NCBI RefSeq assembly: GCF_947492555.1
Contig: NZ_CANLNE010000003.1
Location: 248,001-312,000, forward strand
From: an uncultured Roseobacter sp.
Lineage (GTDB): Bacteria; Pseudomonadota; Alphaproteobacteria; Rhodobacterales; Rhodobacteraceae
Reading direction: 5' to 3'
DNA: 64,000 bases
In this document: piece after piece, positions 11,608 through 35,051 of the stretch
Layout of the letters: every line of letters begins with the position of its first letter
How positions within the stretch are numbered: the first letter of the stretch is position 1
Position numbers and translations under genes: made by a program
The notes under the pieces: model-generated
The model's database searches: none
What the model was told of the DNA's origin: nothing
Seen by the model: only the letters and a program-made list of their open reading frames with translations

Positions 11608-11932
11608 GATCGCATCCTCTGTCTGATCTTGGCGGGGGTCTACCGGAGGATGCGGGCAAGGGGAAGGCGGCGGGTGGGAAAACTTGACCGGCAAAGGTGG
11701 CCTGAAGCCCACCTTACCTGCAGGGGGCGACGGGTGTGGTGAACAGGTAGGGTGGGCTTCAGGCCACCCTTGGCAGCGGGGCCGTCGCACCTGCTCCGGG
11801 CGGGGCTTCTGGAATATCTTCGAAAAATGCGGACTAAAGCGCTGTTTCTACCGTTATCACCGGGACGACTGGACAAGCGTGCGGGTGCCGCTAGTGTCCG
11901 CCTGAACGCAGCGCGCGAAAAGGAGTTCCCCG
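11608..11932. other. 325-bp intergenic region between divergent valS and coxL-like genes
   Basis: The region must hold both promoters. It contains one full copy of the dispersed palindromic repeat (11696-11768) and, next to the plus-strand gene, an 'AAAAGGAG' ribosome binding site near 11920. I see no further gene and no convincing promoter hexamers. Confidence 0.6.
11696..11768 (-). repeat. Dispersed palindromic repeat, copy A (full, 73 bp)
   Basis: 25-bp arms (11696-11720 and 11744-11768) pair at 24 of 25 positions, with the mismatch a potential G-T pair, around a 23-nt centre. The right arm contains 'GTAGGGTGGGCTTCAGGCC'. Read on the minus strand, the whole element including the centre ('CCACACCCG') aligns with copy B at 34978-35051. 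Confidence 0.85.
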
Positions 11933-14230
11933 ATGGAAAAGTTCGGCAAGTCACAATCGATCAAACGGGTGGAAGACGTCCGCTTTCTGACCGGGCACGG
12001 GCGCTATGTGGACGACATCGCGCCTGAGGGTGCACTGCGGGCTTTTGTGTTCCGCGCCCCGGTTGCCCATGCCACAATCACCGGGCTGGATGTCTCGGAT
12101 GCGCGGGCGGCGGAGGGTGTTCAGGCGGTGCTGACAGTTGATGATCTGGAGGCGGCGGGCATGAATATCAATATGTTCGGGGCCACCATCAAGAACCGCG
12201 ATGGGTCGCAGGGGGCGGCACCCAAGCGTCCCTTGTTGGCCAAGGGCAAGCTGCGGTTCGTGGGCGAGCCGGTGGCTTTCATCGTCGCGGACACGCTGGA
12301 TCAGGCGCGGGACGCAGCGGAGCTCATTATGCTCGACTATGACGATCTGCCTGCCAAGATGGACATCGCCGCAGGTGGTCCGGCGGTGCATGACGATGTG
12401 CCGGACAACCGTGGCTTCGACTGGGGGATCGGTGATGAAGCGGCAACCGAGGCGGCATTTGCCAAGGCGGCCCGCACGGTGAGCCTGGAGGTGGGTGACA
12501 ACCGGATCATCGTGAATTCGCTGGAGCCGCGCGGCTGTTTCGCCGAATGGGATGGCGACCGGCTGCATGTCTCGCTGGGCGGGCAGGGTGTCTGGGGGCA
12601 AAAAGACGCGCTGGCCAAGGCGTTTGGGTTGGAGCCCGATCTGGTGCGTGTGACCACGCCGGATGTGGGCGGTGGTTTTGGTATGAAAGGGTTTCCCTAT
12701 CCGGAATATGCGCTGGCGGCCGAGGCGGCGCGGGTCACCGGACGTCCTGTGCGCTGGATGTCGGAGCGGACAGAAGCCATGCTGAGCGACAATGCGGGGC
12801 GTGATCTGACCTCCACGGCGGAGTTTGCCTTTGACGAGACAAACCGGATTGCCGCCTACCGTGTGCACTCGCGCTGCAATCTCGGCGCGTATAACAGCCA
12901 TTTTGGACAATTCATCCAAAGCCAGCTTTTCAGCCGCGTGCTGATGGGCGTCTATGATGTGCAGAACACGTGGCTGCGGGTCGAAGGCATCTATACGAAC
13001 ACGACTTACGTGGACGCCTACCGGGGGGCCGGGCGGCCCGAGGCCATCTATGTGCTGGAGCGCCTGATGGACCGGGCAGCGCGCGAATTGGGGGTAGACC
13101 CGATCGAATTGCGGCGGCGGAATTTCATCAACGCAGACCAGTTTCCCTATGAAACCACCGTGGGCGAAACTTATGACGTGGGCGACTTTGACCGGCTGCT
13201 GACCCGCGCCATTTCCGAGGCGGATCTGGAGGGTTTCGCCGCGCGGAAAAAAGCCGATAAGGATCAGGGCCTTATGCGCGGCGTCGGTTTGTGTTACTAT
13301 ATCGAAAGTATTTTGGGTGATCCTTCGGAAGGCGCGAAGGTTGCTTTTAACGAGGATGGTACGGTGACGATCTACGTGGGCACGCAATCCACAGGGCAGG
13401 GGCACGAGACGGTCTACGCAAATTTCCTGGCGGACCAGACGGGTATGCCTGCGGAATTGATCACAGTGGTTCAGGGCGACAGCGATCTGATCGCGGAGGG
13501 CGGCGGCACCGGTGGGTCGCGGTCTGTTACTGTGCAGAACAACGTGACTCTGGCAGCGGTTGCGGAGATGACTGAGAAGTTCATCGCGTTTCTGGCCGAC
13601 GAAATGGGCGTGCCTGCCTCCGAGATCGGTTTTGATGATGAACGCTTTCGCGCAGATGGCTCTAACCTGAGCCCTACGATGCTGGAAGTGGCAGAAATGG
13701 CGCGTGCGCAGGGCCGCGACGATCTCCTGGTGCATGAAGCACGCGCCACTCTGGATGCCCGAAGCTTTCCCAACGGTTGCCATGTTTCAGAGGTAATTGT
13801 GGACCCTGAGACAGGAGTCGTGACTGTGGACCGCTATACCGTCGTCGATGATTTCGGCAATCTTATCAATCCGATGCTGGCCGAAGGCCAGGTGCATGGT
13901 GGGGTAGCGCAGGGTATCGGTCAGGCGCTGACGGAGCATGTTGTCTTTGACGAAGACGGCCAGTTGCTCACGGCATCGTTCATGGATTACGCCTTGCCGC
14001 GTGCAGACGACATACCCACTATTAGTTTTACATCGGAACCGGTGCCCTCCACCGCCAACATCATGGGGATGAAGGGCTGTGGCGAAGCGGGCACGGTGGG
14101 TGCATTGGCCGCTGTTGCGAACGCGGTTCAGGATGCGCTTTGGGAGCGGGGGGTGCGTCAGGCTGATATGCCTTTCACCCCGCATAAAGTTTGGGAGTTG
14201 TTGAACGGTGAGGTCCTCGCGGCGGAATAA
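11933..14230 (+). CDS. Form II CoxL-like molybdopterin hydroxylase large subunit (orphan)
   Basis: 765-residue large subunit of the xanthine oxidase / CO dehydrogenase family, binding molybdopterin cytosine dinucleotide. The N-terminal a/b hammerhead domain (about 15-130) precedes the Mo-binding domain with 'DVGGGFGMKGFPYPE' (244-258), 'AYRGAGR' (362-368) and 'GCGEAGTVGAL' near the C-terminus. 'AYRGAGR' is the form II signature; true CO-oxidising form I enzymes have AYxCSFR, so CO is unlikely to be the main substrate. No small (2Fe-2S) or medium (FAD) subunit gene is adjacent, which is unusual for a three-subunit enzyme. The DUF2235 gene overlaps its 3' end. Confidence 0.9.
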   Translation: MEKFGKSQSIKRVEDVRFLTGHGRYVDDIAPEGALRAFVFRAPVAHATITGLDVSDARAAEGVQAVLTVDDLEAAGMNINMFGATIKNRDGSQGAAPKRPLLAKGKLRFVGEPVAFIVADTLDQARDAAELIMLDYDDLPAKMDIAAGGPAVHDDVPDNRGFDWGIGDEAATEAAFAKAARTVSLEVGDNRIIVNSLEPRGCFAEWDGDRLHVSLGGQGVWGQKDALAKAFGLEPDLVRVTTPDVGGGFGMKGFPYPEYALAAEAARVTGRPVRWMSERTEAMLSDNAGRDLTSTAEFAFDETNRIAAYRVHSRCNLGAYNSHFGQFIQSQLFSRVLMGVYDVQNTWLRVEGIYTNTTYVDAYRGAGRPEAIYVLERLMDRAARELGVDPIELRRRNFINADQFPYETTVGETYDVGDFDRLLTRAISEADLEGFAARKKADKDQGLMRGVGLCYYIESILGDPSEGAKVAFNEDGTVTIYVGTQSTGQGHETVYANFLADQTGMPAELITVVQGDSDLIAEGGGTGGSRSVTVQNNVTLAAVAEMTEKFIAFLADEMGVPASEIGFDDERFRADGSNLSPTMLEVAEMARAQGRDDLLVHEARATLDARSFPNGCHVSEVIVDPETGVVTVDRYTVVDDFGNLINPMLAEGQVHGGVAQGIGQALTEHVVFDEDGQLLTASFMDYALPRADDIPTISFTSEPVPSTANIMGMKGCGEAGTVGALAAVANAVQDALWERGVRQADMPFTPHKVWELLNGEVLAAE

Positions 14231-15287
14231 CAGGTGGCTCGGCTGGCTGCGCAGCAGGTTCTGGCGCCGGCCTGACAGCGATTTTGGCCCGCGCCGCGGC
14301 CCTGTCACCCATGTCGTCATTCTTGATGGCACGATGTCCTCGCTGGAGCCGGGCTGCGAGACCAACGCGGGGCGGGCCTATCATCTGTGTCGTGAAGTGG
14401 GCAGCCCCCTCTCGATCTATTATGAGCCCGGGCTGCAGTGGGACAGCTGGCGCTCGGCCATGGATGTGATGATGGGGCGTGGTATCAACCGGCAGATCCG
14501 CCGCGCCTATGGCTATCTGGCGTCACGCTATCATCCGGGGGACAAGATTTTCCTCTTTGGCTATTCACGCGGGGCCTATGCGGTGCGCAGCCTCGCCGGG
14601 GTCATCGACTTGATGGGCCTGCTGAAGGCCGAAAACGCGACCGAGCGAAACATCCGCGACGTCTACCGCCATTATGAAGCCGATCCCTCCAGCGATTGCG
14701 CCCGCCAGTTTGCCGCGGCTCACTGTCTTGAAGGGGTCGAGATCGAGATGATCGGTGTCTGGGACACGGTCAAATCGCTGGGCTTCAACGCGCCGGTCCT
14801 GTGGCGTCTCAGCGAGAAGAGACATGCGTTTCACAGCCACCGCCTCAGCCACAACGTGAAAGCGGGGTTCCACGCGCTGGCGCTGGACGAAACGCGCGCG
14901 GCCTATGCGCCGGTGCTCTGGTCCTCGCCCGAGGGGTTTCAGGGGCGGGTGGAACAGGTCTGGTTTGCCGGCACCCATGGTGATGTCGGCGGACAACTTG
15001 GCGGGTTTGAGGAAGCGCGACCTCTGTCTAACATTCCGCTGGTCTGGATGATGGAGCGGGCGCAGATGACCGGCCTGCCGCTGCCCGACGGCTGGACCAC
15101 CCGTTTTGCGCAGGATGCCACGGCCCCCATGCTGGGAACCTTTCGTGGCAATGGTAAATGGTTCATCACCCGGCGGGCGCGCAGACCCCTGCAGGACCCG
15201 TCCGAGCAAATCCACGACAGTGTCGCCCTGCGTCAATCCGTGGCCCCCGCGCCGCGCGGCTGGATGGGGTTCGGAAAGACGGTCTGA
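14208..15287 (+). CDS. DUF2235 alpha/beta hydrolase-like protein
   Basis: 359-residue member of the DUF2235 family (alpha/beta hydrolase fold, related to Tle1-type phospholipases). The nucleophile elbow is 'LFGYSRGAYAVRSLAG' (Ser120). The N-terminal family motif, normally F-x-D-G-T-x-N, reads 'ILDGTMSS' (38-45), so the usual Asn is absent. A conserved 'GVWDTVKSLG' and 'WFAGTHGDVGG' (possible catalytic His) follow. The GTG start at 14208 overlaps the coxL-like gene by 23 bp, suggesting translational coupling. There is no signal peptide; substrate unknown. A paralogue is at 45348. Confidence 0.85.
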   Translation: MRSSRRNNRWLGWLRSRFWRRPDSDFGPRRGPVTHVVILDGTMSSLEPGCETNAGRAYHLCREVGSPLSIYYEPGLQWDSWRSAMDVMMGRGINRQIRRAYGYLASRYHPGDKIFLFGYSRGAYAVRSLAGVIDLMGLLKAENATERNIRDVYRHYEADPSSDCARQFAAAHCLEGVEIEMIGVWDTVKSLGFNAPVLWRLSEKRHAFHSHRLSHNVKAGFHALALDETRAAYAPVLWSSPEGFQGRVEQVWFAGTHGDVGGQLGGFEEARPLSNIPLVWMMERAQMTGLPLPDGWTTRFAQDATAPMLGTFRGNGKWFITRRARRPLQDPSEQIHDSVALRQSVAPAPRGWMGFGKTV

Positions 15288-15395
15288 GATCCGCGGTTTG
15301 CTGCGACGGATCGCTGTGAAATTCCCATTGGCCATTGCACAATGTTATGATCAGTGTGAGGACGTACCGCGTGGTTATTGTGTACGAGGGACCAG

Positions 15396-16397
15396 TTGAA
15401 ACGATACGCAGCCTGGGGTGTTTTGGCGCTTCTTGTGGCACTGGTCTTTGCCGGGTTGGACACCATACGTGCATTTGAAGTGCCCGACAACGCTGCCGTT
15501 TCTGAACATGTGTTTACAGTGCAGGGTCACCACCTCGCCGGGACACTGGTCTTGCCTCCGAAGGTGGATGCGCCTCCCATTGTCCTGATCGTGCATGGGG
15601 ATGGGCCGCAGGACAGGTGGTCTGACAGCACTTATCTGCCGTTGGTCAACGCCTTGGTGGCCCGGGGCACCGGCGTTTTTTCGTGGGACAAACCGGGCAT
15701 CGGGCAAAGCGAAGGTGACTGGTTGGCGCAGTCGATGGCGGACCGCATAAAAGAGGCCGTGACCGCTTTTGAGTATCTGAGAGACCAGCAAGGATTTGCG
15801 CATACAACCTTGGGATTTTTAGGGTTTTCGCAGGCAGGTTGGGTCGTGCCTAAGGTTACAACGGACACCGGTGCCGGATACGCCGTGCTGATCGGGCCTG
15901 CCGTGAACTGGCGTCGCCAGGGGGCCTATTACACGTCAAAACGCCTTGAGAGCGCGGGGCACACTTTTGGGGAAATCGAGCAGGCTGTCGCTGACAACCT
16001 CGCTGAGAACGATCGAATTTTCCGGGATGGGTCCGTGTGCGCAGGCCGCGATGACATGAGCGCGGCGCGCTGCGCCTTCGTCAGGCGCAACTATGGGGTC
16101 GATGCGACCGAAGACGTGCTGGCAATGACGACACCGACCCTCGTTTTGATGGGCGCGGATGATCTGAACGTGTACCCATCCGAAACGGCAGAGTTATATG
16201 CGAAAAATCCGCACCATGATGTGCGGATCGTGCCGCAGGCAACGCACAGTTTACTGCGGGCGCAGCACTTCAATTTCCAGACCCCTGCAGATTGGACCGC
16301 TCTGGCGGGGCTGCGCTTTCTGCTCAGTGGAAGCCGCGCCTATGCGCCGGTCGTATTGGATGAGATTTCCCGGTGGGTTGCCACACGCGCGCAGTAA
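15396..16397 (+). CDS. Alpha/beta hydrolase with N-terminal membrane anchor or signal
   Basis: 333-residue alpha/beta hydrolase. The hydrophobic N-terminus 'MKRYAAWGVLALLVALVFAG' is a signal or anchor, so the catalytic domain is probably periplasmic. The oxyanion motif 'IVHGDGPQD', the elbow 'LGFSQAGWV' (Ser145), the acid region 'VLMGADDLNVYPSE' and a C-terminal His ('ATHSLLRA') follow. There is no ATG: I chose the TTG at 15396 behind 'CGAGGG' over an earlier TTG at 15378. GC content looks somewhat lower than in neighbours. Peptidase or esterase specificity cannot be inferred. Confidence 0.82.
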   Translation: MKRYAAWGVLALLVALVFAGLDTIRAFEVPDNAAVSEHVFTVQGHHLAGTLVLPPKVDAPPIVLIVHGDGPQDRWSDSTYLPLVNALVARGTGVFSWDKPGIGQSEGDWLAQSMADRIKEAVTAFEYLRDQQGFAHTTLGFLGFSQAGWVVPKVTTDTGAGYAVLIGPAVNWRRQGAYYTSKRLESAGHTFGEIEQAVADNLAENDRIFRDGSVCAGRDDMSAARCAFVRRNYGVDATEDVLAMTTPTLVLMGADDLNVYPSETAELYAKNPHHDVRIVPQATHSLLRAQHFNFQTPADWTALAGLRFLLSGSRAYAPVVLDEISRWVATRAQ

Positions 16398-16468
16398 CGC
16401 GCGGCCCGGAGACAGCTGGCCGGTCCGTGGCCACGTCTCTGCCAACAGATTTGCAAACCGGAGCAGAT

Positions 16469-16494
16469 GACCCGAGCCACGAGTGGCTCGGGTC
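16469..16494. terminator. 12-bp perfect hairpin between convergent genes
   Basis: Arms 16469-16480 and 16483-16494 ('GACCCGAGCCAC' and its complement) with almost no loop. T-tracts are weak on both sides, so terminator activity is plausible but not certain. It lies between the hydrolase stop (16397) and the small minus-strand gene ending at 16503. Confidence 0.5.
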
Positions 16495-16502
16495 GGGACC
16501 GG

Positions 16503-16706
16503 TCAGAACGGGAACCGGTGTGAGAGAGGCGGAGGGTGTTCAACCTCCGGTTCGAGACCCACGTCCTCCCGCAGGTAGGCGGGCAGATGCGCGCGCGCAT
16601 AAGGGTCGCGCCGCAGCCGTCTTGGCGCCCGGATTAAAACCGCCACCAACCGCAACAGAACACCGCGCGACCGGCTGAGGGGGATGTAGAGTGATAAGTT
16701 TGGCAT
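16503..16706 (-). CDS. Small arginine-rich protein, unknown
   Basis: 67-residue protein starting 'MPNLSLYIPLSRSRG' with a basic helix 'LLRLVAVLIRAPRRLRRD' and a segment 'AYLREDVGLEPE'. The latter loosely recalls the 'LLRDIGL' end of DUF1127 proteins, but that is too weak for assignment. The start follows 'GGAGAGCACAA', a good ribosome binding site. It lies downstream of a tiny ORF plus intrinsic terminator on the same strand, an arrangement resembling an attenuated or read-through operon. Confidence 0.5.
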   Translation of the reverse strand: MPNLSLYIPLSRSRGVLLRLVAVLIRAPRRLRRDPYARAHLPAYLREDVGLEPEVEHPPPLSHRFPF

Positions 16707-16752
16707 TTGTGCTCTCCATGAATGATGGAAAGCCGCCGCATGAGGAGGATAT

Positions 16753-16784
16753 AAAAAGAAAAGGCCGCTTCATGAGGCGGCCTT
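16753..16784 (-). terminator. Intrinsic terminator (minus strand)
   Basis: 8-bp GC-rich stem (AAGGCCGC, 16761-16768, with 16777-16784), 8-nt loop and, on the minus strand, a TTCTTTTT tract. It lies between the 17-codon ORF at 16810-16863 and the small gene starting at 16706. Confidence 0.75.
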
Positions 16785-16809
16785 CGGAATAGAAACCTGT
16801 CAGACCGCT

Positions 16810-16863
16810 TTAGCTGGCAATCACGCCCGCTGCGCAAAGCATATGTGGTTGACGATTCTTCAT
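16810..16863 (-). CDS. 17-codon ORF, possible leader peptide
   Basis: ATG at 16863 preceded by 'GAAAGGTCAGAC', encoding MKNRQPHMLCAAGVIAS and stopping 26 bp before the terminator stem at 16784. There is no run of a single regulatory amino acid, so classical amino-acid attenuation is not obvious. The arrangement could equally be a small RNA gene that happens to contain an ORF. Coding status is unproven. Confidence 0.4.
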   Translation of the reverse strand: MKNRQPHMLCAAGVIAS

Positions 16864-16968
16864 GTCTGACCTTTCTGCTGTCAGGGTTTCCGTTCGGCAC
16901 GGGTAGCAGGGCCGAGAGATTCGTTCAACTCCCGGATGCAGGGTCGGTGCAATTCTGCCGGTGACGGA

Positions 16969-17463
16969 TCAGGTCATCTTCATGATGATGCAGGTCGTCG
17001 ATCCGGTGGCATAAAGCTTGCCGTCCTCGACCCCGCGGATTTCGCCATGCGCAACGCCCGTAGATCGACCGGAATGATCAATCTCGCCGATACAATCGAT
17101 GGTCGTGCCAAGGGGGATGTTGCGGGTTATGTTGATCTTGAATTCCAGCGTTGTGTAGATCGAGCCGCGCGGCACTTTTGTCATCACGGCGCAGGCCATG
17201 GCGGAATCGAGCAGGGTGCCGTACCAGCCGCCATGCACCGTCCCCATCGGGTTGGTCACGTTGAATTCCGGCGTGCCGCGAAACACGGCCCGCCCGTCGA
17301 ACACGGCGTGCAGGGTGTAGCCCATGGTCTCGCCAATGGGCGGACCGGGGTGACGCCCGTCCAGAATGCCCTGCATGAATTCAAGCCCTGACATGGACAG
17401 AACATCAGCTTGGCTAAGCAGGTCAGCGGGGGATTTTGCGATGGGCATGTCAGGCTCCGACAA
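16969..17463 (-). CDS. PaaI-family hotdog thioesterase
   Basis: 164-residue hotdog-fold acyl-CoA thioesterase. 'NPMGTVHGGWYGTLLDSAMACAV' around residues 91-113 is the family signature, with the HGG turn and catalytic Asp on the central helix. An in-frame ATG at 17448 (MPIAKSP) is an alternative start. It lies 50 bp downstream of metF on the same strand and may be its operon partner, though no pathway link is evident. Substrate unknown. Confidence 0.88.
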   Translation of the reverse strand: MSEPDMPIAKSPADLLSQADVLSMSGLEFMQGILDGRHPGPPIGETMGYTLHAVFDGRAVFRGTPEFNVTNPMGTVHGGWYGTLLDSAMACAVMTKVPRGSIYTTLEFKINITRNIPLGTTIDCIGEIDHSGRSTGVAHGEIRGVEDGKLYATGSTTCIIMKMT

Positions 17464-17513
17464 GAGGGAATTTATGTCTGGAGCTAAGCGTTTATCGGAT
17501 TTGGGAACAAGGA

Positions 17514-18383
17514 TTACGCGACGTCGCGCACGCCCGAGGTGGCCAGCGTAACGCCAAGTGCGTGGCAGATCTCGCGCGTCATGTCGGGGCGGTTCAGCGT
17601 GTAGAAATGCAGGTCCTCGACGCCCTCGTCGACCAGGTCCGAGCAGAGTTCTGTGCAGATTGCCGTGGCCAGCAGATCGTGCCGGTCATCACGGATTGCC
17701 GCCTCGAACGCCTGATCCAACCAGGCCGGAATGGTTGCGCCGCAGCGCAGGGCGAACTTGCGCGCGCTGGTCCAGTTGATGATGGGCAGGATGCCCGGCG
17801 TAATCGGCGCCGTGATACCCGCTTTGGCACAATCATCACGGAACCGCAGGAAGGTGTCGGCCTCGAAAAAGAACTGGGTGATCGCTTCATCCGCGCCCGC
17901 ATCGATCTTTGCTTTCAGCCAGTCGATGTTGGCCTGCTGGCTGGCGGCCTCGGGGTGTTTTTCCGGGTAGGCACCCACGCGCAGGGTGAACTGGCCGGAC
18001 TGCGCCAATGCCTCGATTAATTCGACCGCATTGGCAAAACCGTCGGGATGGGCTGTGAAACTGTCCTGGCCTTCTGGCGCATCGCCGCGCAGGGCAACGA
18101 TGTCGGTGATCCCTGCCTTGGCAAACCGTTGGGCCACGGCGAGGGTCTCCGCCTTGGACGCGCCGACGCAGGTCAGATGCGCGGCAACCGGCAGGCCGGA
18201 TGATTTGTGCAGCGTATAGGCCGCGTCATGAGTCAAATCGCGCGTGCTGCCGCCCGCACCATAGGTGACCGAGAAAAATCGCGGCTCCAGCGGCGCCAGT
18301 GCCTGCGCGGTTTCCCACAGTTTAAAGGACGCATCGATGGAGCGGGGCGGGAAGACTTCAAATGAGACGGATGGGGTGGACAT
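17514..18383 (-). CDS. metF: 5,10-methylenetetrahydrofolate reductase
   Basis: 289-residue flavoprotein reducing 5,10-methylene-THF to 5-methyl-THF for methionine synthesis. The N-terminal strand 'VSFEVFPPRS' carries the catalytic Glu. 'FFSVTYGAGGSTRDLT' and 'PVAAHLTCVGASKAE' line the TIM-barrel FAD site, and 'ITDIVALRGDAPEG' follows. The length is standard. It is divergent from the LysR gene at 18472 across an 88-bp region with palindromes typical of MetR sites. Confidence 0.96.
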   Translation of the reverse strand: MSTPSVSFEVFPPRSIDASFKLWETAQALAPLEPRFFSVTYGAGGSTRDLTHDAAYTLHKSSGLPVAAHLTCVGASKAETLAVAQRFAKAGITDIVALRGDAPEGQDSFTAHPDGFANAVELIEALAQSGQFTLRVGAYPEKHPEAASQQANIDWLKAKIDAGADEAITQFFFEADTFLRFRDDCAKAGITAPITPGILPIINWTSARKFALRCGATIPAWLDQAFEAAIRDDRHDLLATAICTELCSDLVDEGVEDLHFYTLNRPDMTREICHALGVTLATSGVRDVA

Positions 18384-18398
18384 CGGGCGACTTCCTTA

Positions 18399-18465
18399 TG
18401 AGTTGTCACCTTGTGCCATACCGCACTTCGTGAGACAAACTCATAACTCTCATCTTTAACATGAG
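18399..18465. promoter_or_regulatory. Putative MetR-type operator region between metF and metR
   Basis: Two inverted repeats lie in the divergent spacer: TGAG-N5-CTCA at 18431-18443 and CTCAT-N7-ATGAG at 18449-18465, plus a lone TGAG at 18399-18402. The first fits the MetR-like form TGAR-N5-YTCA, related to the enterobacterial TGAA-N5-TTCA. The operator role is inferred from motif and context. Confidence 0.55.
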
Positions 18466-18471
18466 GCACGC

Positions 18472-19377
18472 ATGCATATCGAGTTTCGCCACCTGCGCAC
18501 GATCCAGGCCATCCACGAGGCGGGTGGGCTGGCGCGTGCGGCGGATCAGCTGCACATCACCCAATCTGCTTTGAGCCATCAAATCAAGGGGTTGGAGGAT
18601 CAGGCCGGGGTCGAGCTTTTTGTGCGCCGGTCCAAGCCGCTCAAGCTGTCGCCGGCAGGCATTCGTCTGCTGAAACTGGCACAACAGGTCCTGCCGCAAG
18701 TGCAAGCCTTGCAGGAAGAATTCACCGGCCTGCGGGCGGGCAGCACCGGCCGGATGCATATCGCCATTGAATGCCACGCCTGTTTCGAATGGCTCTTCCC
18801 GGTGCTGGAGAAGTTCCGCAAAAGCTGGGGGGATGTCGATGTGGATATCCGTCCGGGGCTGGCCTTTGACGCGCTGCCTGCGCTGTTAAAGGAAGAGGTT
18901 GATCTGGTGGTCTCTTCCGACCCGGAGGAGTTGCCGGGGGTGAAGTTTGTCGAACTCTTTGATTACGCGCCGGTTTTTGTAGCTGCAAGCACGCATCCTC
19001 TGGCGCAGAAACCCTATGTCGAGGCGGCGGATTTCCGGGAGGAGACGTTGATCACCTATCCGGTGGAGCGCACCCGGCTTGATGTCTTCAGCCAACTTCT
19101 GATCCCTGCCAAGGTGGAGCCTGCCGCGATCCGGCAGGTGGAGCTGACGGCGGTGATCCTGCTGCTGGTCGCCTCCAATCGCGGGGTATCGGTGCTGCCG
19201 GATTGGGTGGTGCGGGAGGTGAAGTATTCCTCCGACTACATCACGCGCCCTCTGACTGAAAAAGGGATCACCCGAAGGCTTTACGCGGCAGTGCGCGAGG
19301 ACGATCTGGGCAAGCCCTTCATGCAGCAACTGCTGGAATTGGCCGGGGAGGAAGCGCGGAAGCTGCAGGCTGTTTGA
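18472..19377 (+). CDS. metR: LysR-family regulator, probable MetR
   Basis: 301-residue LysR-type regulator. The N-terminal winged HTH (residues 3-60) includes 'AADQLHITQSALSHQIKGLE', followed by a linker and a periplasmic-binding-protein-like effector domain ('GRMHIAIECHACFEWLFPVLE'). Divergence from metF and the TGAG/CTCA palindromes between them support MetR, the homocysteine-responsive activator of methionine genes. 'AIECHACFEWL' is characteristic of MetR effector domains as I know them. Its 3' end is only 3 bp from the convergent bluB stop. Confidence 0.88.
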   Translation: MHIEFRHLRTIQAIHEAGGLARAADQLHITQSALSHQIKGLEDQAGVELFVRRSKPLKLSPAGIRLLKLAQQVLPQVQALQEEFTGLRAGSTGRMHIAIECHACFEWLFPVLEKFRKSWGDVDVDIRPGLAFDALPALLKEEVDLVVSSDPEELPGVKFVELFDYAPVFVAASTHPLAQKPYVEAADFREETLITYPVERTRLDVFSQLLIPAKVEPAAIRQVELTAVILLLVASNRGVSVLPDWVVREVKYSSDYITRPLTEKGITRRLYAAVREDDLGKPFMQQLLELAGEEARKLQAV

Positions 19378-19380
19378 GCG

Positions 19381-20004: not shown

Positions 20005-20018
20005 GGCTGATTGGCCTG

Positions 20019-20249: not shown

Positions 20250-20252
20250 GTG

Positions 20253-24545: not shown

Positions 24546-24578
24546 CGCGTGCCGCCCCCCGATGGCCGGAGCCTACGC

Positions 24579-24908: not shown

Positions 24909-24969
24909 CCTTTCATTGTTCTAAAAATATGCAAATCCCCCCTTCGCCATCTATGCCGGAATCCCAGTC

Positions 24970-27984: not shown

Positions 27985-28552
27985 GCCGGTTACTGCTCTG
28001 GGCGGCGCGTCTTCGACCGACGGGATTGCGATGGTCTCGGAATGTGCTCTTCAGGGCATGATTACCCTGCGGGGTGATCTCTCTGCCAGCGCGTTCAAGA
28101 AAGCGGCTACATCGGCGTCTGGCGTTGCGATGCCGGAACAGGGCATGGCCACGGTCGAGGAAGATCGCGGACTGTGCTGGATGAGCCCTGACGAACTCCT
28201 GCTGCTCTGCCCCTATGACGCGGTGGGCGGGACCCTGGCCAACGTGCATAAGACGCTGGCGAAATCGCATGCGCTCGCCGTCAACGTTTCCGATGCCCGC
28301 GCGATGTTTCGCGTCAGCGGGGCGGGCGCCCGCGAGGTGATGACCAAGCTCTGCCCTGTGGATCTGGCGCCCGATCAGTTCACGCCCGGCATGTTTCGCC
28401 GCACGCGGATGGCACAGGTTCCGGCCGCCTTCTGGATGCCGGAAGAGGACGTGTTTCAGATCGTCTGTTTCCGGTCCCAGGCACAATATGTCTTTGATCT
28501 GCTGACTGTTGCGGCGCAGCCCGGGTCATCGGTGGGCGTTTACCAGGAGTAA
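27977..28552 (+). CDS. soxG: Sarcosine oxidase gamma subunit, copy 1
   Basis: 191-residue gamma subunit, itself GcvT-like ('MFRVSGAGAREVMTKLCPVDL' and 'ARAMFRVSG'). The ATG at 27977 overlaps the end of soxA by 8 bp; the second copy shows the same 8-bp overlap, supporting this start and translational coupling. A 7-bp hairpin (28557-28574) without T-tract follows the stop. Confidence 0.92.
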   Translation: MSEPVTALGGASSTDGIAMVSECALQGMITLRGDLSASAFKKAATSASGVAMPEQGMATVEEDRGLCWMSPDELLLLCPYDAVGGTLANVHKTLAKSHALAVNVSDARAMFRVSGAGAREVMTKLCPVDLAPDQFTPGMFRRTRMAQVPAAFWMPEEDVFQIVCFRSQAQYVFDLLTVAAQPGSSVGVYQE

Positions 28553-28697
28553 CGGTTGACGCCGCTTGGCGTCAGTGCCAGCATCGTGCGAAACCAATCT
28601 GGTGCGCGGATGGTGACGGTCGAGATGGATGCGACATCCCAAGGGGTTGCACGTCTTTCCGAGCGCGTAATGTGCGCCCACAACTTCTGGATACTCT

Positions 28698-29108
28698 ATG
28701 CTGTCGCGCTTATCATTTTTGCTCTTTTTATTGCTTCCTCTACCGGCCCTCGCGGCGCAGGGCGTGCTCTATGACTGCGATATGACCAATCTCAAACGCG
28801 GTAAGGGGTGGATTTCCGAAAAAATCGCGATTGTGGTGCGCGACAATGGTACTGCGACGGTCAGTGATGCCTTTGTTCTTGAAGTGTACTCGGCGCCCGT
28901 TGCGGCAAACAGTGTGCGTCAAACGGCCAACAGGCTGACGGTCAAATGGACCATCAAGGACTATACGAACGGCGAAAATCAGAGAACTCCCTATTTCGAC
29001 TTTGAAGCCACGATTCGCAAGAATGGAAAGATTTCGGTCTATGCGCGACCGGATCTTTATCACAATCAGTTTTCGGGCACGGGGACCTGTACCAAGCGCA
29101 CCAGCTGA
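28698..29108 (+). CDS. Secreted hypothetical protein
   Basis: 136-residue protein with a clear Sec signal peptide (MLSRLSFLLFLLLPLPALA-A). The mature part is beta-rich, with two cysteines (in 'YDCDMTN' and 'GTGTCTK') that could form a disulfide. A 145-bp gap separates it from soxG. Possibly a periplasmic beta-sandwich protein; I do not recognise the family. Confidence 0.78.
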   Translation: MLSRLSFLLFLLLPLPALAAQGVLYDCDMTNLKRGKGWISEKIAIVVRDNGTATVSDAFVLEVYSAPVAANSVRQTANRLTVKWTIKDYTNGENQRTPYFDFEATIRKNGKISVYARPDLYHNQFSGTGTCTKRTS

Positions 29109-29251
29109 TCGCGTGACCCCGGCCCGGTCGGCGGGGTTTTCCCATGGAAATCCGTATTCGGAGCACTTTTTGCACCCGTTAACACTTGAACTCCGGAGCG
29201 GCTGCGCTTCATGTGCAGTACACCCAACTGAAATGACAAAGGGGGCCCGCA

Positions 29252-29851
29252 ATGGCTTTTTCACTTCCTGATCTTCCTTATGCCCACGACGCTCTGGCTG
29301 GCAAAGGCATGTCCGCGGAGACACTGGAGTACCACCACGATCTGCACCACAACGCCTATGTGACCAATGGCAACAAGGCGATCGAGGGCACCGAGTGGGA
29401 AGGCAAATCGCTCGAAGAGATCATCAAGGGTACCTATGACGCCTCTGCCGTGGCGCAGAACGGTATTTTCAACAACATCAGCCAGCTGTGGAACCACAAC
29501 CAGTTCTGGGAGATGATGGGGCCGGGCGACAGCGCGATGCCGGGTGAGCTGGAAAAGGCGATCACCGACAGCTTTGGCTCGGTCGACAAGTTTAAGGATG
29601 ACTTCAAGGCCGCGGGCGCGGGTCAGTTCGGCTCCGGCTGGGCGTGGCTGGTGAAAGACACCGACGGCAGCCTGAAGGTCACCAAGACCGAGAACGGCGT
29701 GAACCCGGTCTGCTTCGGTCAGACGGCCCTGCTGGGGTGTGACGTGTGGGAGCATTCCTACTACATCGATTTCCGCAACAAACGCCCGGACTACCTGTCG
29801 AACTTCCTCGACAACCTCGTGAACTGGGAAAATGTAGCCAGCCGGCTCTGA
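29252..29851 (+). CDS. sodB: Superoxide dismutase, iron type
   Basis: 199-residue Fe/Mn superoxide dismutase. Metal ligands by family alignment are His28 ('LEYHHDLHH'), His82 ('WNHNQFW'), Asp164 and His168 ('DVWEHSYYIDF'). Gln78 in 'NNISQLWNH' occupies the FeSOD-type glutamine position, favouring iron. No signal peptide, so cytoplasmic. Sarcosine oxidases next door generate H2O2, so oxidative-stress proximity is suggestive only. It ends with an intrinsic terminator. Confidence 0.95.
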   Translation: MAFSLPDLPYAHDALAGKGMSAETLEYHHDLHHNAYVTNGNKAIEGTEWEGKSLEEIIKGTYDASAVAQNGIFNNISQLWNHNQFWEMMGPGDSAMPGELEKAITDSFGSVDKFKDDFKAAGAGQFGSGWAWLVKDTDGSLKVTKTENGVNPVCFGQTALLGCDVWEHSYYIDFRNKRPDYLSNFLDNLVNWENVASRL

Positions 29852-29880
29852 TCCCAGGCCACCGTTTTCCTGCACATTCG

Positions 29881-29910
29881 AAAGGTCCTGCCCAGGGGTG
29901 GGGCCTTTTT
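29881..29910 (+). terminator. Intrinsic terminator after sodB
   Basis: A 13-position stem with wobble pairs ('AAAGGTCC' with 'GGGGCCTTT' at its base) and a TTTTT tract, 29 bp after the sodB stop. Confidence 0.7.
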
Positions 29911-29965
29911 ACTTGTTGGCCGTGCCAATTCGGATCACAACCACGCTCAGAGGAGCAGGGTTGCG

Positions 29966-30883
29966 ATGAACGAGCGAACCAAAGGCGTGCTGGCGATGAT
30001 CGGGGCCTGCAGTATCTGGGGGCTCTCCCCCATGTATTACAAGCTGTTGTCGCACATTCCGGCGGTCGAGGTTCTGTCGCACCGGATGATCTGGTCACTG
30101 GTCCTCTTTGCGGTGCTGCTCGCTGTGCAGGGGCGGTTGCGCGAAATCACCCGCTCCATGAACACCCTGCGCACATTCACACTGGTGGCCATTGCCTCGC
30201 TGATGATTGCGGCGAATTGGTCGCTCTTCATCTGGTCGGTGCAGACCGGCAATACCACGCAGACCTCGCTAGGGTACTACATCTACCCGCTGGTGGCGGT
30301 CGTGATCGGGCGTCTTGTGTTTGGCGAGATGTTGAGCCGCACGCAATGGGTGGCGGTGGCCTTCGCGACACTTGCGGTGTCAATCCTGACCGTGGGTCTG
30401 GGCACCGTGCCTTGGATTGCCCTGACGCTGGCGATCACCTTTGGGTTCTACGGGCTGATCAAAAAGCAGCAGAATGCGGGCCCCGTGGTGTCTGTGACCG
30501 GGGAAATCCTGCTGTTGATGCCGGTCGCGCTGCTCGTGTTGTTGCAAACGCATCACGATGGTGGTGCGGTTTTTGGTGGTGATCGGCAGACGATGGCGCT
30601 GCTGATTTTTGCCGGACCGATCACTGCGCTGCCGCTGATCCTGTTTTCCTACGCGGCCCGCCGATTGGCGATGACATCCGTCGGCCTGCTGCAGTACATC
30701 AACCCGACACTGCAATTCGCCTGCGCGGTTTTCGTGTTCTCAGAGCCGTTCGGCCCATGGCACGTCGCGGCATTTGCGTTGATCTGGAGCGCGCTGGCGC
30801 TCTATTCCGCCACCGCCTATCGTCAGGACAAGGCGCGGCGCAAAGCGTCCCGCGCGGCGGCAGCATCTGGCACGATTTCATAG
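29966..30883 (+). CDS. rarD: EamA-family transporter RarD
   Basis: 305-residue DMT-superfamily permease with ten predicted helices in two EamA repeats. 'KGVLAMIGACSIWGLSPMYYKLL' at the N-terminus is typical of RarD. The family exports small metabolites; chloramphenicol sensitivity in the original RarD is the only named phenotype I know. Its 3' end overlaps the convergent LOG gene by 61 bp. Confidence 0.9.
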   Translation: MNERTKGVLAMIGACSIWGLSPMYYKLLSHIPAVEVLSHRMIWSLVLFAVLLAVQGRLREITRSMNTLRTFTLVAIASLMIAANWSLFIWSVQTGNTTQTSLGYYIYPLVAVVIGRLVFGEMLSRTQWVAVAFATLAVSILTVGLGTVPWIALTLAITFGFYGLIKKQQNAGPVVSVTGEILLLMPVALLVLLQTHHDGGAVFGGDRQTMALLIFAGPITALPLILFSYAARRLAMTSVGLLQYINPTLQFACAVFVFSEPFGPWHVAAFALIWSALALYSATAYRQDKARRKASRAAAASGTIS

Positions 30884-31374
30884 TAGCCGTGCAGCGTGTC
30901 ATCGGCGAATCCCTGATCAGTGACATGCTTTAAAAGTGCCAGCAGAGGGTCCCAGTAACCATTTGTATTTACGAGAAATACCGGCTTTTCATGCAGGCCG
31001 AGTTGGCGCCAGGTCAGGACCTCGAAAAGCTCGTCCAGCGACCCCGCACCGCCGGGCAGAACCACGACCGTATCGCAGTTCATGAACATCACTTTCTTGC
31101 GCTCGTGCATGGTTTCGGTCACGACGTAAGAGGTCAGATCGGTCTTGCCGACCTCCCAGGCAACAAGGTGCTGCGGGATCACGCCAAAGGTCTCGCCGCC
31201 CGCCTGCTGCGCCGCCCGCGCAACCGCCCCCATTAACCCCACATCGCCAGCGCCATAGACCAGACGCCAGCCTTCGGCTGCAAGCGTGCTGCCCAGTGCC
31301 GTGGCGTCCGCCAGATAGGCGGGATCAGCGCCGGGGCGCGAGCCGCAGTAGACGCAAACAGATTTCAGGCGCAT
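30823..31374 (-). CDS. LOG-family nucleoside phosphoribohydrolase (TIGR00730)
   Basis: 183-residue Rossmann-fold protein related to cytokinin-activating LOG enzymes, which release free base from nucleoside 5'-monophosphate. 'VCVYCGSRPGADPAY', 'YGAGDVGLMGAVA' and 'LPGGAGSLDELFE' correspond to the family motifs (usually GGGxxGLMG and PGGxGTxxE), with G-to-A and T-to-S substitutions. The ATG at 31374 is chosen as the family start; the frame is open to 31569. It overlaps rarD tail to tail. Confidence 0.9.
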   Translation of the reverse strand: MRLKSVCVYCGSRPGADPAYLADATALGSTLAAEGWRLVYGAGDVGLMGAVARAAQQAGGETFGVIPQHLVAWEVGKTDLTSYVVTETMHERKKVMFMNCDTVVVLPGGAGSLDELFEVLTWRQLGLHEKPVFLVNTNGYWDPLLALLKHVTDQGFADDTLHGYYEIVPDAAAARDALRRALS

Positions 31375-31510
31375 GAGAGTATCCCTTACCGTTGAAATTA
31401 ATGGCAAATGTGATCGCCGGGGTTTTGACCGGTGATAGAGCAGTTGATATGTAGGCTCAACGTCTGTCCCACTGCTCGGGACGGCGAGCATTCGGGAAGA
31501 AGAGAATATT

Positions 31511-33016
31511 ATGCGCGAAGAGGGGGCTGGCACCAAATCAGGTGGCACAGGATTGTTGGCGGCTGGCATCGTGATCGTCGCGGTGATTGCAGCGGGTGCC
31601 TACCTCAGCTTTGGCCCGGAACCCGCGCCAAGTGACGAAGAACTGGCCGCCATCGTAGCTCAGGATGCGTCGGTGCCTTCGCAGGATGCACCTGATGCGG
31701 CGACTGAAGGCGGTACGTCCGATGATGAAGCGGCGGACGGGGACAGTGCAGCCGAGCCACGCGTTGCCCCAAGCATAGATGAGGTCCGGTTGGAGGACGA
31801 CGGTCTGACCGTTATCGCCGGACGCGCGGAACCCGGCGCGCAGGTGTCTGTGCTGGTGGATGGCGAGGAGGTGGCAACTGCAACGGCGGATGCGAATGGT
31901 GCCTTTGCGGCCGTGGGTGTTGTAGCCCCGAGCGATGACGCGCGCGTTCTAACGCTGCAGGCAAACGGGGCGGGCGCGCCTGTGATGTCGGCTGAAGACG
32001 TGATTTTGGCACCGCTTCCGGTGCAAACGGTGGAGACGGACACCGCACCTGCGCGTCCACCGGAGGCCGGCCTGTCCTCCTCTGGGGATGCGGCTCCGGC
32101 AGATACCGCGCTTGCAGAGAGACGCCCGGATACAGGTGGAACGGAGGAGGTCGCGGCGTCGGACGCAATGCCTGCACCGGAGGCCATCCAGCAGGATGAA
32201 ACGGTTGCGGCTAAAGCGGCCCAAGACCCCCCTGAAGTCACAAACCCGTCGGAGGGCGCTGATCCTGTAGATGTTCCGGTGACCGAAGAGCTTGCGACGC
32301 TCGCGCCGGACACCACGCAAACGTCTACGGTCCCCGATGCTGACGTCGTTGTGACAACTGATGAGACTGACGCGCCATCCCGGCCGGATGTTGAGGCGCC
32401 GTCGGCGACCGCACCTACGCAGCCCGAGCCAACCCGGGAAAGTGAGGCAGAGGTCGCTGAGGTGGAGCCTGCTAGCCCATCGCAATCTGTCGCCGTGCTC
32501 AAATCGACCGAGGATGGGGTCGAGTTGCTGCAATCCCAACCGCAAGTGCTGTCGTCGATTGCAATTGACACCATTGGGTATTCTGAGACCGGCGACGTGC
32601 AGTTGTCTGGCCGGGCCGTTGCCGGAACATCTGAAGTGCGTGTCTATCTCGATAACCGTTTTGTCGGCGGCTTGCCCGTCGACGTGAGTGGCGGCTGGCG
32701 TGGTGAGATACCCGAGGTTGATGCGGGCATCTACCAATTACGGGTTGATGAGGTGAACGAAGCCGGTGACGTAACGAGCCGCCTGGAGACGCCATTCAAA
32801 CGCGAGGCGCCTGCAATCCTGGCAGAAGCGTCCGCGGGGCAGGAGGGTCCTGTTCGTGCGGTGACGGTGCAGACCGGCGACACCCTTTGGGCAATCGCAC
32901 GCGACAGATACGGTGAAGGGTTGCTTTACGTGCGTGTCTTCGAGGCCAATCGCGCCGACATTCGTGACCCCGATCTGATCTATCCGGGACAGGTGTTTGA
33001 TCTGCCGGTCGAATAG
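31511..33016 (+). CDS. Membrane-anchored LysM protein with Ig-like segments
   Basis: 501-residue protein. One transmembrane segment (about 14-34, 'GLLAAGIVIVAVIAAGAYL') is followed by an acidic Ala/Pro/Thr low-complexity region, two beta-rich Ig-like units (about 80-160 and 345-425, each with a 'V(S/R)V.(V/L)D' strand) and a C-terminal LysM domain (about 447-500, 'VQTGDTLWAIARDRYGEG'). LysM binds peptidoglycan, so the protein probably spans from inner membrane to cell wall. The low-complexity middle likely acts as a spacer. Partner unknown. Confidence 0.88.
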   Translation: MREEGAGTKSGGTGLLAAGIVIVAVIAAGAYLSFGPEPAPSDEELAAIVAQDASVPSQDAPDAATEGGTSDDEAADGDSAAEPRVAPSIDEVRLEDDGLTVIAGRAEPGAQVSVLVDGEEVATATADANGAFAAVGVVAPSDDARVLTLQANGAGAPVMSAEDVILAPLPVQTVETDTAPARPPEAGLSSSGDAAPADTALAERRPDTGGTEEVAASDAMPAPEAIQQDETVAAKAAQDPPEVTNPSEGADPVDVPVTEELATLAPDTTQTSTVPDADVVVTTDETDAPSRPDVEAPSATAPTQPEPTRESEAEVAEVEPASPSQSVAVLKSTEDGVELLQSQPQVLSSIAIDTIGYSETGDVQLSGRAVAGTSEVRVYLDNRFVGGLPVDVSGGWRGEIPEVDAGIYQLRVDEVNEAGDVTSRLETPFKREAPAILAEASAGQEGPVRAVTVQTGDTLWAIARDRYGEGLLYVRVFEANRADIRDPDLIYPGQVFDLPVE

Positions 33017-33122
33017 CCCGCCGCATCAACGCGCCCAGATAGCGCGCGAATAATCCCCTCTTTGACTGGCAAAGGCCGGATGAGTGCCTTACGTAAGCCT
33101 TTGAACGCAAGCAGGACACTTC

Positions 33123-34964
33123 ATGCCAGCCGATACGACTACAAGCCCGGACGCGGATGACGCGACGGGTGCACAAAAGACGGAAAATGAGGAACGGCAA
33201 TCGGGTTTGCGAACGATCCGCAAGGTCGCGCCCTACCTGTGGCCGGAAGATCCTGCCTGGGTAAGGCACCGGGTTCTGGGTGCGATGGCGCTTTTGATCT
33301 TTTCCAAGCTGATTTCGGTGAGCACACCGTTTTTCTACAAAGGCGCCGTAGATGCGCTGGCTGAGGAAGGCGTGCCCATGCTGGCACTTGGCGCTGTCGG
33401 CTTGACGGTTGCCTACGGTGTGGCGCGGTTGATGACCGTCGGCTTCCAGCAGTTGCGGGATGCGGTCTTTGCGCGGGTTGGCCAGCGTGCCTTGCGGATG
33501 CTCGCGCTGGAGACCTTCAACCACATCCACAAGCTCTCTATGCGATATCACATCACCCGCAAGACCGGCGGGCTCAGCCGGATTATTGAACGTGGGGTGA
33601 AGGGCGTCGACTTCCTGCTACGGTTCCTGCTCTTTTCGATCGGTCCGCTGATGCTGGAACTGGTGCTGGTTGGGATCATTCTCGCGGTGGTGTTCGATTT
33701 CTGGTACCTGCTCGTGGTTGCCGCCACCATCGCACTCTATGTCTGGTTTACCTTTGCAGTGACCGAGTGGCGGGTGAAGCTGCGCCGGGAGATGAACGAC
33801 CAGGACACCGATGCCAACCAGAAGGCCATCGACAGTCTGTTGAACTTTGAAACAGTCAAGTATTTCGGTGCCGAGGCGCGCGAGGCCCGACGCTACGACA
33901 GCGCCATGGAGAAGTACGAAGCGGCGGCAATCAAAACCAACTACAGTCTGGCGTTTTTGAACTTCGGCCAGTCTCTCCTGATCACGGGCGGGTTGATCGG
34001 GGTGATGATTATGGCCGCTATCGGGGTGCAGAACGGCTCTCTTACAGTGGGTGATTTTGTGATGGTGAATGCCTACATGGTCCAGATCACCATCCCCCTG
34101 AATTTCCTCGGCACGGTCTATCGCGAGATCCGTCAGGCGCTGGTGGATATGGGCGAGATGTTCGATTTGCTTGAGCAACCGGCAGAGGTGAAAGACGCCC
34201 CTGACGCAAAGCCGCTGCAGGTGACGGGCGGGCGTGTGGAGCTTGACGCCGTGCGGTTTGGATACGATGCCGAGCGGGCGATCCTGAAGGGGGTCAGCGT
34301 CATTGCGGAGCCTGGAGAAATGGTCGCCATTGTCGGGTCCACGGGTTCGGGGAAATCAACCATCGGCCGATTGCTGTTCCGGTTTTACGATGTGGGTGGT
34401 GGCGCCCTGCGCATAGACGGTCAGGATGTGCGCCAGGTGACGCAGGAAAGCCTGCATGCGGCCATTGGCGTGGTGCCACAGGATACAGTGCTGTTCAACG
34501 ATACGATCCGCTACAATATCGGGTACGGGCGGGATGGTGCGACACAGCAAGAGATAGAAACGGCGGCCAAGGCGGCGCAGATTCACGATTTCATCGAAGG
34601 GCTGCCTGAAGGGTACCAGACGACCGTCGGAGAACGTGGATTGAAGCTCTCTGGTGGCGAGAAGCAGCGCGTGGGGATCGCGCGGACCCTGTTGAAAGAC
34701 CCGCCGATCCTGTTGCTGGACGAGGCGACATCGGCGCTTGATTCCGAGACGGAACAGGACATCAAGGAAGCGCTGATGCAGGCAGGGCGGGGGCGTACAG
34801 TGCTGACCATCGCGCACCGGCTGTCGACCATTGCCGAAGCGGACAAAATCATCGTTCTGGAACAGGGCGAGGTCGTTGAACAGGGTCGACATGAGGACCT
34901 GCTGGAAAAGGGCGGTCGATACGCACAACTCTGGGCGCGTCAGCAATCTGACGAGGCCGCCTGA
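33123..34964 (+). CDS. Atm1/HMT1-type ABC exporter (half-transporter)
   Basis: 613-residue fused permease-ATPase acting as a homodimer. The transmembrane domain spans about 60-340 ('SVSTPFFYKGAVDAL'). The nucleotide-binding domain has Walker A 'GSTGSGKST' (near 405), signature 'LSGGEKQRVGIAR' (near 509) and Walker B 'ILLLDEATSALDSETE'. The sequence fits the ABCB7/Atm1 group, exporting glutathione-linked metal or persulfide conjugates; substrate cannot be proven from sequence. One full palindromic repeat lies immediately downstream. Confidence 0.93.
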   Translation: MPADTTTSPDADDATGAQKTENEERQSGLRTIRKVAPYLWPEDPAWVRHRVLGAMALLIFSKLISVSTPFFYKGAVDALAEEGVPMLALGAVGLTVAYGVARLMTVGFQQLRDAVFARVGQRALRMLALETFNHIHKLSMRYHITRKTGGLSRIIERGVKGVDFLLRFLLFSIGPLMLELVLVGIILAVVFDFWYLLVVAATIALYVWFTFAVTEWRVKLRREMNDQDTDANQKAIDSLLNFETVKYFGAEAREARRYDSAMEKYEAAAIKTNYSLAFLNFGQSLLITGGLIGVMIMAAIGVQNGSLTVGDFVMVNAYMVQITIPLNFLGTVYREIRQALVDMGEMFDLLEQPAEVKDAPDAKPLQVTGGRVELDAVRFGYDAERAILKGVSVIAEPGEMVAIVGSTGSGKSTIGRLLFRFYDVGGGALRIDGQDVRQVTQESLHAAIGVVPQDTVLFNDTIRYNIGYGRDGATQQEIETAAKAAQIHDFIEGLPEGYQTTVGERGLKLSGGEKQRVGIARTLLKDPPILLLDEATSALDSETEQDIKEALMQAGRGRTVLTIAHRLSTIAEADKIIVLEQGEVVEQGRHEDLLEKGGRYAQLWARQQSDEAA

Positions 34965-34977
34965 CCCTTCCGCCGAA

Positions 34978-35051
34978 GGTGGCCTAAAGCCCACCCTACC
35001 TGTTTGCCACACCCGATGCTGCCTGCAGGTAGGGTGGGCTTTCAGGCCACC
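34978..35051 (+). repeat. Dispersed palindromic repeat, copy B (full, 74 bp)
   Basis: Left arm 34978-35002 and right arm 35026-35051 pair except for a one-base bulge; 23-nt centre. It is the inverse orientation of copy A, with centres alignable at about 17 of 23 positions. It lies between two convergent genes (ABC exporter and DUF302), where it could also act as a terminator hairpin. Confidence 0.87.

Follow-up and report, generated by a model that had tools for sequence, protein, structure and literature searches.

REPINs at gene 3′-ends and a RAYT without its catalytic residues in Roseobacter: a probable former transposition module

Introduction

Two long palindromes in a 64,000-nt stretch of a Roseobacter genome raise the question of what kind of repeat they belong to, what spread it and what keeps it in place. 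The stretch, hereafter the window, is G000:C3:248001-312000, where G000 is its own genome (4.44 Mb in 11 contigs). It holds two full copies of the repeat in opposite orientation, copy A at 11696..11768 (73 nt) and copy B at 34978..35051 (74 nt), each made of two inverted arms of 25-26 nt around a centre and assigned to no strand, and a third, single-arm copy, C, at 44502..44527 on the + strand. A preliminary description had reported all three and had taken them for copies of a REP/MITE-like unit, REP standing for repetitive extragenic palindrome and MITE for miniature inverted-repeat transposable element. Here we report that the repeat is a REP, often joined in inverted pairs (REPINs), and that the REPIN population is accompanied by a probably vertically inherited REP-associated tyrosine transposase (RAYT) that lacks its catalytic residues, the whole probably being a former transposition module whose REPs have been kept as 3′ hairpins.

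Results and discussion

The core 13-mer of the repeat, GTAGGGTGGGCTT, occurred 75 times genome-wide with at most one mismatch, compared with 5 times for the reversed control. The stretches around these matches held 78 REP arms at 56 places, 22 of which are inverted pairs, a count that misses arms diverging more from the core. Each arm consists of a tag followed by an imperfect hairpin, GGTGG-G-C...G-G-CCACC, with a G-G mismatch that is conserved in most hairpins as read from the sequence, and the tags of a pair face inward (tail-to-tail). Tags in the own genome were GTAG in 51 arms, GTAA in 26 and GTTG in one (n = 78), that is, GTAR; the best pair in each of seven other genera carried GTAG in 13 of 14 arms and GTAA in the remaining one, and a degenerate tag, GTNN, is carried by the Roseobacter genomes isolate 930, R. 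cerasinus and WL0113. The centre between the arms measured 27-30 nt in 13 of the 22 pairs and 9-14 nt in six, with single centres of 39, 48 and 67 nt. Five other Roseobacter genomes yielded 45 exact pairs, whose 19-nt hairpins were always 36 or 37 nt apart, although 15-45 nt were allowed. All 45 stretches with exact full pairs in a public genome collection lay in records titled Roseobacter, in a search that may omit records very near the window's genome, and an arm-pattern search showed that sibling genomes of the same genus also carry the repeats.

The centres are related as well. Their inner 19 nt were alike between copies at 0.50, compared with 0.29 in shuffles (n = 29), and within single species the centre interiors of different sites were identical at 0.48-0.58 against a null of 0.30 (n = 7-8 each). 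Because centres are alike between copies, also at different sites of one species, we conclude that the copies have a common origin that includes the centre. An imperfect palindrome of 20-40 nt present in many copies, and two inverted REPs around a related spacer at 22 of the 56 places, identify the repeat as a member of the REP/REPIN class. The further copies and related centres that the preliminary description had anticipated are thus at hand, and the REP half of its REP/MITE-like label stands, given the REPINs, their related centres and a RAYT in the genome. The MITE half does not. Terminal inverted repeats around a related centre would suit a MITE moved by some other transposase; however, a flanking direct repeat of 2-9 nt was found at none of the 22 own pairs and at no more than one of 45 sibling pairs at any length from 2 to 9 (at length 1, 18 compared with 10.8 expected), so that a MITE with target-site duplications was rejected for own and sibling pairs alike. 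Nor was any longer element with such ends seen, and viral contigs gave 0 exact matches, phage and plasmid collections not being searched, a result on which carriage by phages was also set aside. We regard a MITE as scarcely credible.

If the repeat is a REPIN, a RAYT may be expected somewhere in the genome. The Pfam profile Y1_Tnp (PF01797) had no match in the own genome; of the 18 siblings, 4 gave matches, only two of them REPIN-rich: G004 with 10 matches and G015 with one fragment. The Y1_Tnp genes of G004 were dismissed as movers of the repeat, other REPIN-rich genomes being without a Pfam-passing match save for the G015 fragment. Sub-threshold Y1_Tnp matches (E up to 1) from other genera were identified as RAYTs, and a search profile built from five RAYTs of other genera recovered one RAYT of 182 codons in the own genome (E 5.9e-56); the conclusion from PF01797 that the genome has no RAYT was a false negative. 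The gene lies ~123 kb past the window end and is preceded, at 44 bp, by a full REPIN. The preliminary description had noted the lack of a RAYT in the window and advised a search for a RAYT/Y1 transposase; both points were borne out, the sole profile match of the genome falling outside the window. The protein scored 151 bits against NCBIfam NF047646 (REP-associated tyrosine transposase; cut-off 80) and its sole significant match among solved structures was 4er8 (E 1.9e-31), the TnpA-REP of E. coli (PMC6006769).

Alignment to 4er8, on whose chain Tyr115, His59 and Asn119 are numbered, revealed that the own RAYT has Ala at HUH His59, Leu at the catalytic Tyr and Ala at the Asn four residues on. 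Roles of the catalytic Tyr and the metal-binding Asn in RAYTs are described in PMC6006769 and PMC2817692. The same replacements recur in all 11 Roseobacter RAYTs (Tyr to Leu, Asn to Ala, first HUH His to Ala, Ser or Thr), whereas the second HUH His is retained in 10 of them; none of the 11 thus has the catalytic combination of HUH and Tyr. Two further RAYT features are an NP(L/V)(R/K)xG motif and an N-terminal Thr (PMC2817692): the former is replaced by APVQAG or close variants in Roseobacter, and the latter is retained in 11 of 11. The 45 intact RAYTs agree at 90% or more in 45 aligned columns. Of these columns, 24 were unaltered in all 11 Roseobacter rows and seven were altered in all of them, namely 58 and 59 in the HUH motif, 127, 128 and 135 in the Tyr segment, and two with mild changes outside these segments (I replaced by L at 80 and S by T at 147). 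The ratio of nonsynonymous to synonymous substitution rates (dN/dS) ranged from 0.048 to 0.290 in 42 of 55 Roseobacter RAYT pairs, dS being undefined in the other 13. AlphaFold models of two RAYTs were too poor (predicted local distance difference test score, pLDDT, 47) and were left unused.

The loss extends beyond Roseobacter. We collected 92 RAYT rows. Both HUH and Tyr are present in 46 of them; Tyr alone is missing in 14, Tyr is missing and HUH incomplete in 29, one row lacks only a HUH His and two are fragments; low-scoring rows were fetched deliberately (40 loci), and these counts are not population frequencies. In a tree of 88 rows, whose bootstrap is not fully settled, 25 dead and 3 Tyr-less rows formed a clade with support 100/93 and zero intact members, inside which the 11 Roseobacter rows were one clade (100/98). 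Outside it, dead and Tyr-less rows occur singly as well. Judged from its sequence, the Roseobacter protein is a RAYT by descent without the catalytic features that define a working RAYT.

RAYT and repeat nevertheless go together within the genus. The RAYT is present in 11 of 19 Roseobacter genomes, including all eight REPIN-rich ones (30-64 model matches, both strands counted), each of which has a REPIN just upstream of the gene; by eye, none of these eight has a REPIN within 130 nt downstream. The eight RAYT-less genomes gave zero matches to the repeat by model and zero by arm pattern. REPIN-rich genomes thus number 8 of 11 with a RAYT and 0 of 8 without (Fisher p 0.003, ignoring kinship). 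In six other genera the RAYT adjoins the same neighbour gene or genes, and the RAYT-less Roseobacter genomes keep both neighbours, with a gap of 19-136 bp in six. Given this common neighbourhood in the other genera, loss from the RAYT-less genomes is the simpler reading. In G010 (L327) and G017 (L331), ~0.4-0.5 kb of other sequence stands in place of RAYT and REPIN.

Some RAYTs of other genera are themselves interwoven with REPs. In-frame REP or REP-like stretches were seen within the RAYT frames L163 (G211), L166 (G308) and L169 (G027), and also in L160 (G304) and L171 (G280). REPs in the dialect of the respective genome flank the RAYT genes L162 (G195), L163 (G211), L166 (G308), L167 (G155) and L170 (G123), and in RAYTs flanked in this way the GTAG tag provides the RAYT stop codon, TAG.

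We then asked where the elements lie relative to genes, which were predicted with a simple gene finder that had learned codon usage from the window. None of the 56 places overlapped a predicted gene by more than 12 nt, as befits an extragenic repeat. A facing gene 3′-end was present at 54 of them, and a stop codon lay within 15 nt upstream of the element at 45 of 56 (median 7 nt for the 54 with a facing gene end). The places comprised 21 convergent, 33 unidirectional and 2 divergent gaps, compared with 5, 28 and 11 among the 44 window intergenic gaps of at least 20 bp. That copies occur between divergent as well as convergent genes, as had been stated for the window, is correct there; genome-wide, however, divergent placement is confined to 2 of 56 places, which makes copy A at 11696 atypical. 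The excess of convergent sites (21/56 compared with 5/44) is what ordinary bidirectional intrinsic terminators would produce. Against such terminators, only 1 of 51 elements was followed within 8 nt by TTTT and 2 of 51 had 5 or more T in those 8 nt, taking the direction of one upstream gene, and 19 of the 33 unidirectional elements stand only 16-34 nt before the next predicted start codon. Because T-runs are nearly absent we do not take the elements for ordinary terminators, an explanation that we consider very improbable. The earlier argument was that a pure terminator role does not explain the copies; their strong tie to gene 3′-ends nevertheless makes a role there likely, other than that of an ordinary intrinsic terminator.

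Most REPs stand at sites that different species have in common. Among the elements examined, 28 of 31 in G008 and 22 of 30 in G015 were at sites shared with the own genome, and the remaining ones had no flank among the 56 own-genome loci. One of these unmatched sites carries a full pair in G008, G002, G006, G012 and G015 and a degenerate arm in G016; since five relatives hold the full pair, and in the own genome ~1.5 kb of other sequence without an arm replaces 0.2 kb, the element was probably lost there. Hairpin bases were identical to the own genome at 721 of 732 positions in G008 (98.5%) and 590 of 624 in G015 (94.6%), figures that are inflated by the picking of loci through pattern matches. 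The inner centres were identical at 111 of 152 (73%) and 104 of 184 positions (57%), respectively. The three window sites were examined in relatives without pattern-based choice. The site of copy B is filled in 7 of the 11 genomes with a RAYT (G000, G002, G008, G015, G012, G004, G016), and lacks the element in G005, G006, G007 and G014 as well as in all 7 readable RAYT-less genomes, the contig of G001 ending there. At the site of copy C, a single arm stands in G000, G002 and G008, a full pair in G015, G012 and G006, and no element in G004, G016, G014 and G010; given the full pair in three relatives, truncation of a pair is the best reading of the single arm. In G004, the flanks of a site shared with G008 (L265) lie ~174 kb apart with one arm each (L341, L343), a rearrangement whose breakpoint falls in the REPIN and which would fit recombination between REPINs.

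Tag and flank can pair with each other. Of 74 arms from isolate 930, R. cerasinus and WL0113, 72 have a last tag base complementary to the base that directly flanks the hairpin, and both tag bases pair in 37 of 74, compared with 11.5 expected and a maximum of 22 in 2000 shuffles. At sites shared by G000 and G015, 9 of 33 arms had changed both bases with pairing kept (wobble included). Such pairing may result from selection acting on the individual hairpins; alternatively, by analogy with the pairing of guide and cleavage site in IS608-like elements (PMC8266576), it may record how targets were chosen.

Several results weigh against a former transposition module whose hairpins are now held by selection. 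The own genome has no excess of tag-flank pairing (both bases in 19 of 78 arms compared with 16.8; last base in 29 of 78). Genomes with a RAYT may be nearly without elements, as G005 (2 model matches), G007 (0) and G014 (0, with 3 arm-pattern matches) are, and, conversely, G023 and G111, from other genera, have REPs and no match to the RAYT profile. Together with the tight placement after stop codons and the compensating changes, this uncoupling is what one would expect of selected 3′ hairpins that work without the RAYT, in 3′-end protection or partial termination, the RAYT having an unrelated function. Such an explanation accounts poorly for the finding of the repeat in 0 of 8 RAYT-less Roseobacter genomes by pattern or model, and for a sequence conserved beyond mere pairing. 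We judge it unlikely.

The remaining contrary results concern movement. Among the genomes resolved at its site, which do not include G015, G014 and G010, copy A is clade-specific: it is present only in G000, G002 and G008 and absent in G012, G006, G004 and G016. Centres at sites shared by G000 and G008 were alike (0.81, n = 10, compared with 0.533 for other pairs), while those shared by G000 and G015 were no more so than non-orthologous ones (0.529, n = 8, compared with 0.528, n = 200). Inside G015, 930 and WL0113 the centres were mutually alike at 0.62-0.66 (shuffled own, 0.455). Centre pairs reaching 0.85 numbered 6 of 120 in G015, compared with 0 of 78 in the own genome, and the centres of two different G015 sites were 95% identical. 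Even after the catalytic residues were lost, then, there must have been some copying between sites or else selection on the centre across a clade. The notion of a completely frozen population was weakened by the clade-specific copy A, the likeness of centres and the near-identical centres of G015. The same three observations would suit an ordinary, active REPIN-RAYT system in which the Roseobacter RAYT still moves REPINs by means of other residues. That proposal has to contend with 11 Roseobacter RAYTs that have all lost Tyr, the first HUH His and Asn, with Tyr in 0 rows of the 28-row clade and with most examined elements standing at sites common to several species; we find it quite unlikely, even more so than hairpins working without the RAYT.

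Taken together, the results are best accommodated by a working model of a domesticated module in which, as the data indicate, the REPs are largely fixed 3′ hairpins and the dead RAYT would be their putative binder. An ancestral RAYT would have spread the REPs and then lost its transposition chemistry, keeping enough of its fold and of its nucleic-acid-binding residues to be worth retaining, probably as a REP-binding factor. Selection would now hold the REP hairpins at gene ends. As RNA, each REP would fold into a hairpin only a few nt downstream of the stop codon and may act on the mRNA by protecting its 3′-end, by promoting the release of ribosomes at the stop or by insulating neighbour genes from each other. 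REP content would still shift somewhat between existing sites, through recombination or some other route. More tentatively, and at a little less than even chances in our estimate, an ancient RAYT lineage of Rhodobacteraceae may have given up transposition chemistry yet stayed partnered with REP hairpins, the dead RAYT turning into a trans-acting REP-binding regulator and the REPs into largely fixed 3′ hairpins close behind stop codons, so that an entire population of mobile elements would now be a post-transcriptional regulon.

The REPIN-RAYT system type is already known, and the Roseobacter form differs from it by what the alignments predict to be a catalytically degenerate RAYT. With the REPIN-RAYT systems of Pseudomonas and E. 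coli (REPtrons, TnpA-REP) it shares inverted REP pairs, a GTAG-type tag, an imperfect hairpin, a related spacer, a single RAYT beside a REPIN, vertical inheritance and placement 3′ of genes; unlike them, it has a RAYT without the residues aligned to Tyr115, His59 and Asn119, a tag that is degenerate (GTNN) in one clade and a REPIN seen only upstream of the RAYT. The GTAG REP families 1-24 of Di Nocera et al. 2013 (PMC3733652) likewise have a GTAG tag, dimers including tail-to-tail ones, and convergent and unidirectional placement near stop codons. Their tail-to-tail dimers, however, are usually described there as having variable spacers, whereas the Roseobacter centre is related between copies. 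In the text of that paper, apart from the figures, which list species, none of the words Roseobacter, Rhodobacter, Dinoroseobacter, Ruegeria, Silicibacter and alphaproteobacteria was found. The paper also describes CGTC REPs, mostly of Alphaproteobacteria, which resemble the present repeat in being palindromic and mostly dimers and which have no dedicated transposase; they differ in their tag, the own genome having GTAR, and in forming mainly head-to-head dimers (PMC3733652).

In E. coli, REPs at most 15 nt from the stop are reported to stall ribosomes (PMC12306157). According to that report, 446 of 4072 E. coli REPs are stop-proximal in this sense, compared with 45 of 56 places here, the translation effect being that of E. 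coli only. What benefit REPINs could bring to their host has been said to have little evidence (PMC8049555), and a RAYT without catalytic residues whose sequence is nonetheless conserved from species to species, accompanied by REPINs, separates host benefit from transposition. A published survey gathered its proteins through Pfam Y1_Tnp and kept in its tree only holders of the HuH and Y motifs (PMC6006769); RAYTs of the present kind could be overlooked by such a filter, since Pfam misses the own RAYT. Among the matches listed in open-licence PMC papers, titles and the starts of abstracts described neither Roseobacter REPs nor a catalytically dead RAYT.

Within the window, the 22-nt arm pattern (at most 3 mismatches) matched three times, compared with no match in 100 shuffles, and copies A and B fold far better than shuffled sequence on both strands (z -7.7 to -8.8). 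Copy A, supported by pattern match and by its occupancy in relatives, lies between the divergent genes for a valyl-tRNA synthetase (- strand) and a molybdopterin-binding dehydrogenase (+). Its arms, recognized by the arm pattern, are a GTAA tag with hairpin at 11696..11717 (-) and a GTAG tag with hairpin at 11747..11768 (+), and they enclose a 29-nt centre at 11718..11746 (no strand). Copy B, also a pattern match, lies between convergent genes, the stop of an ABC transporter gene (+) being 13 bp away and that of a DUF302 gene (-) 7 bp away; by the same pattern, both arms carry GTAG tags and hairpins, at 34978..34999 (-) and 35029..35051 (+), and its 29-nt centre is at 35000..35028 (no strand). 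The alignment of the two centres at about 17 of 23 positions after inversion, as first described, proved exact: 17 of 23 inner positions are identical, and 0 of 20000 shuffled pairs reached this value in either orientation. Copy C, another pattern match, consists of CAG followed by a GTAG tag and hairpin; the stop of an EngA-like GTPase gene (+) lies 6 bp before it, and it overlaps the 3′-end of a predicted gene at 44518-45246 (-).

Some minor features of the family were also observed. A weak conserved motif, CTTGGTC, pointing outward, lies beyond the hairpins in the outer flanks of the exact pairs, so the unit may exceed 75 bp. The two arms of a pair had equal tag bases in 9 of 67 pairs from the own genome and five relatives, compared with 18.9 expected, and in 5 of 22 pairs of the own genome alone, compared with 10.5; inspection by eye of 14 unidirectional pairs gave no support to RNA wobble pairing as the cause of the unequal arms. 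Finally, at G000:C2:904928-905894 two single inverted arms 921 nt apart flank a hydrolase-like gene, an arrangement found at the same place in G008; by eye, the gene looks like an esterase/hydrolase and not a transposase, and it was discarded as a candidate autonomous element.

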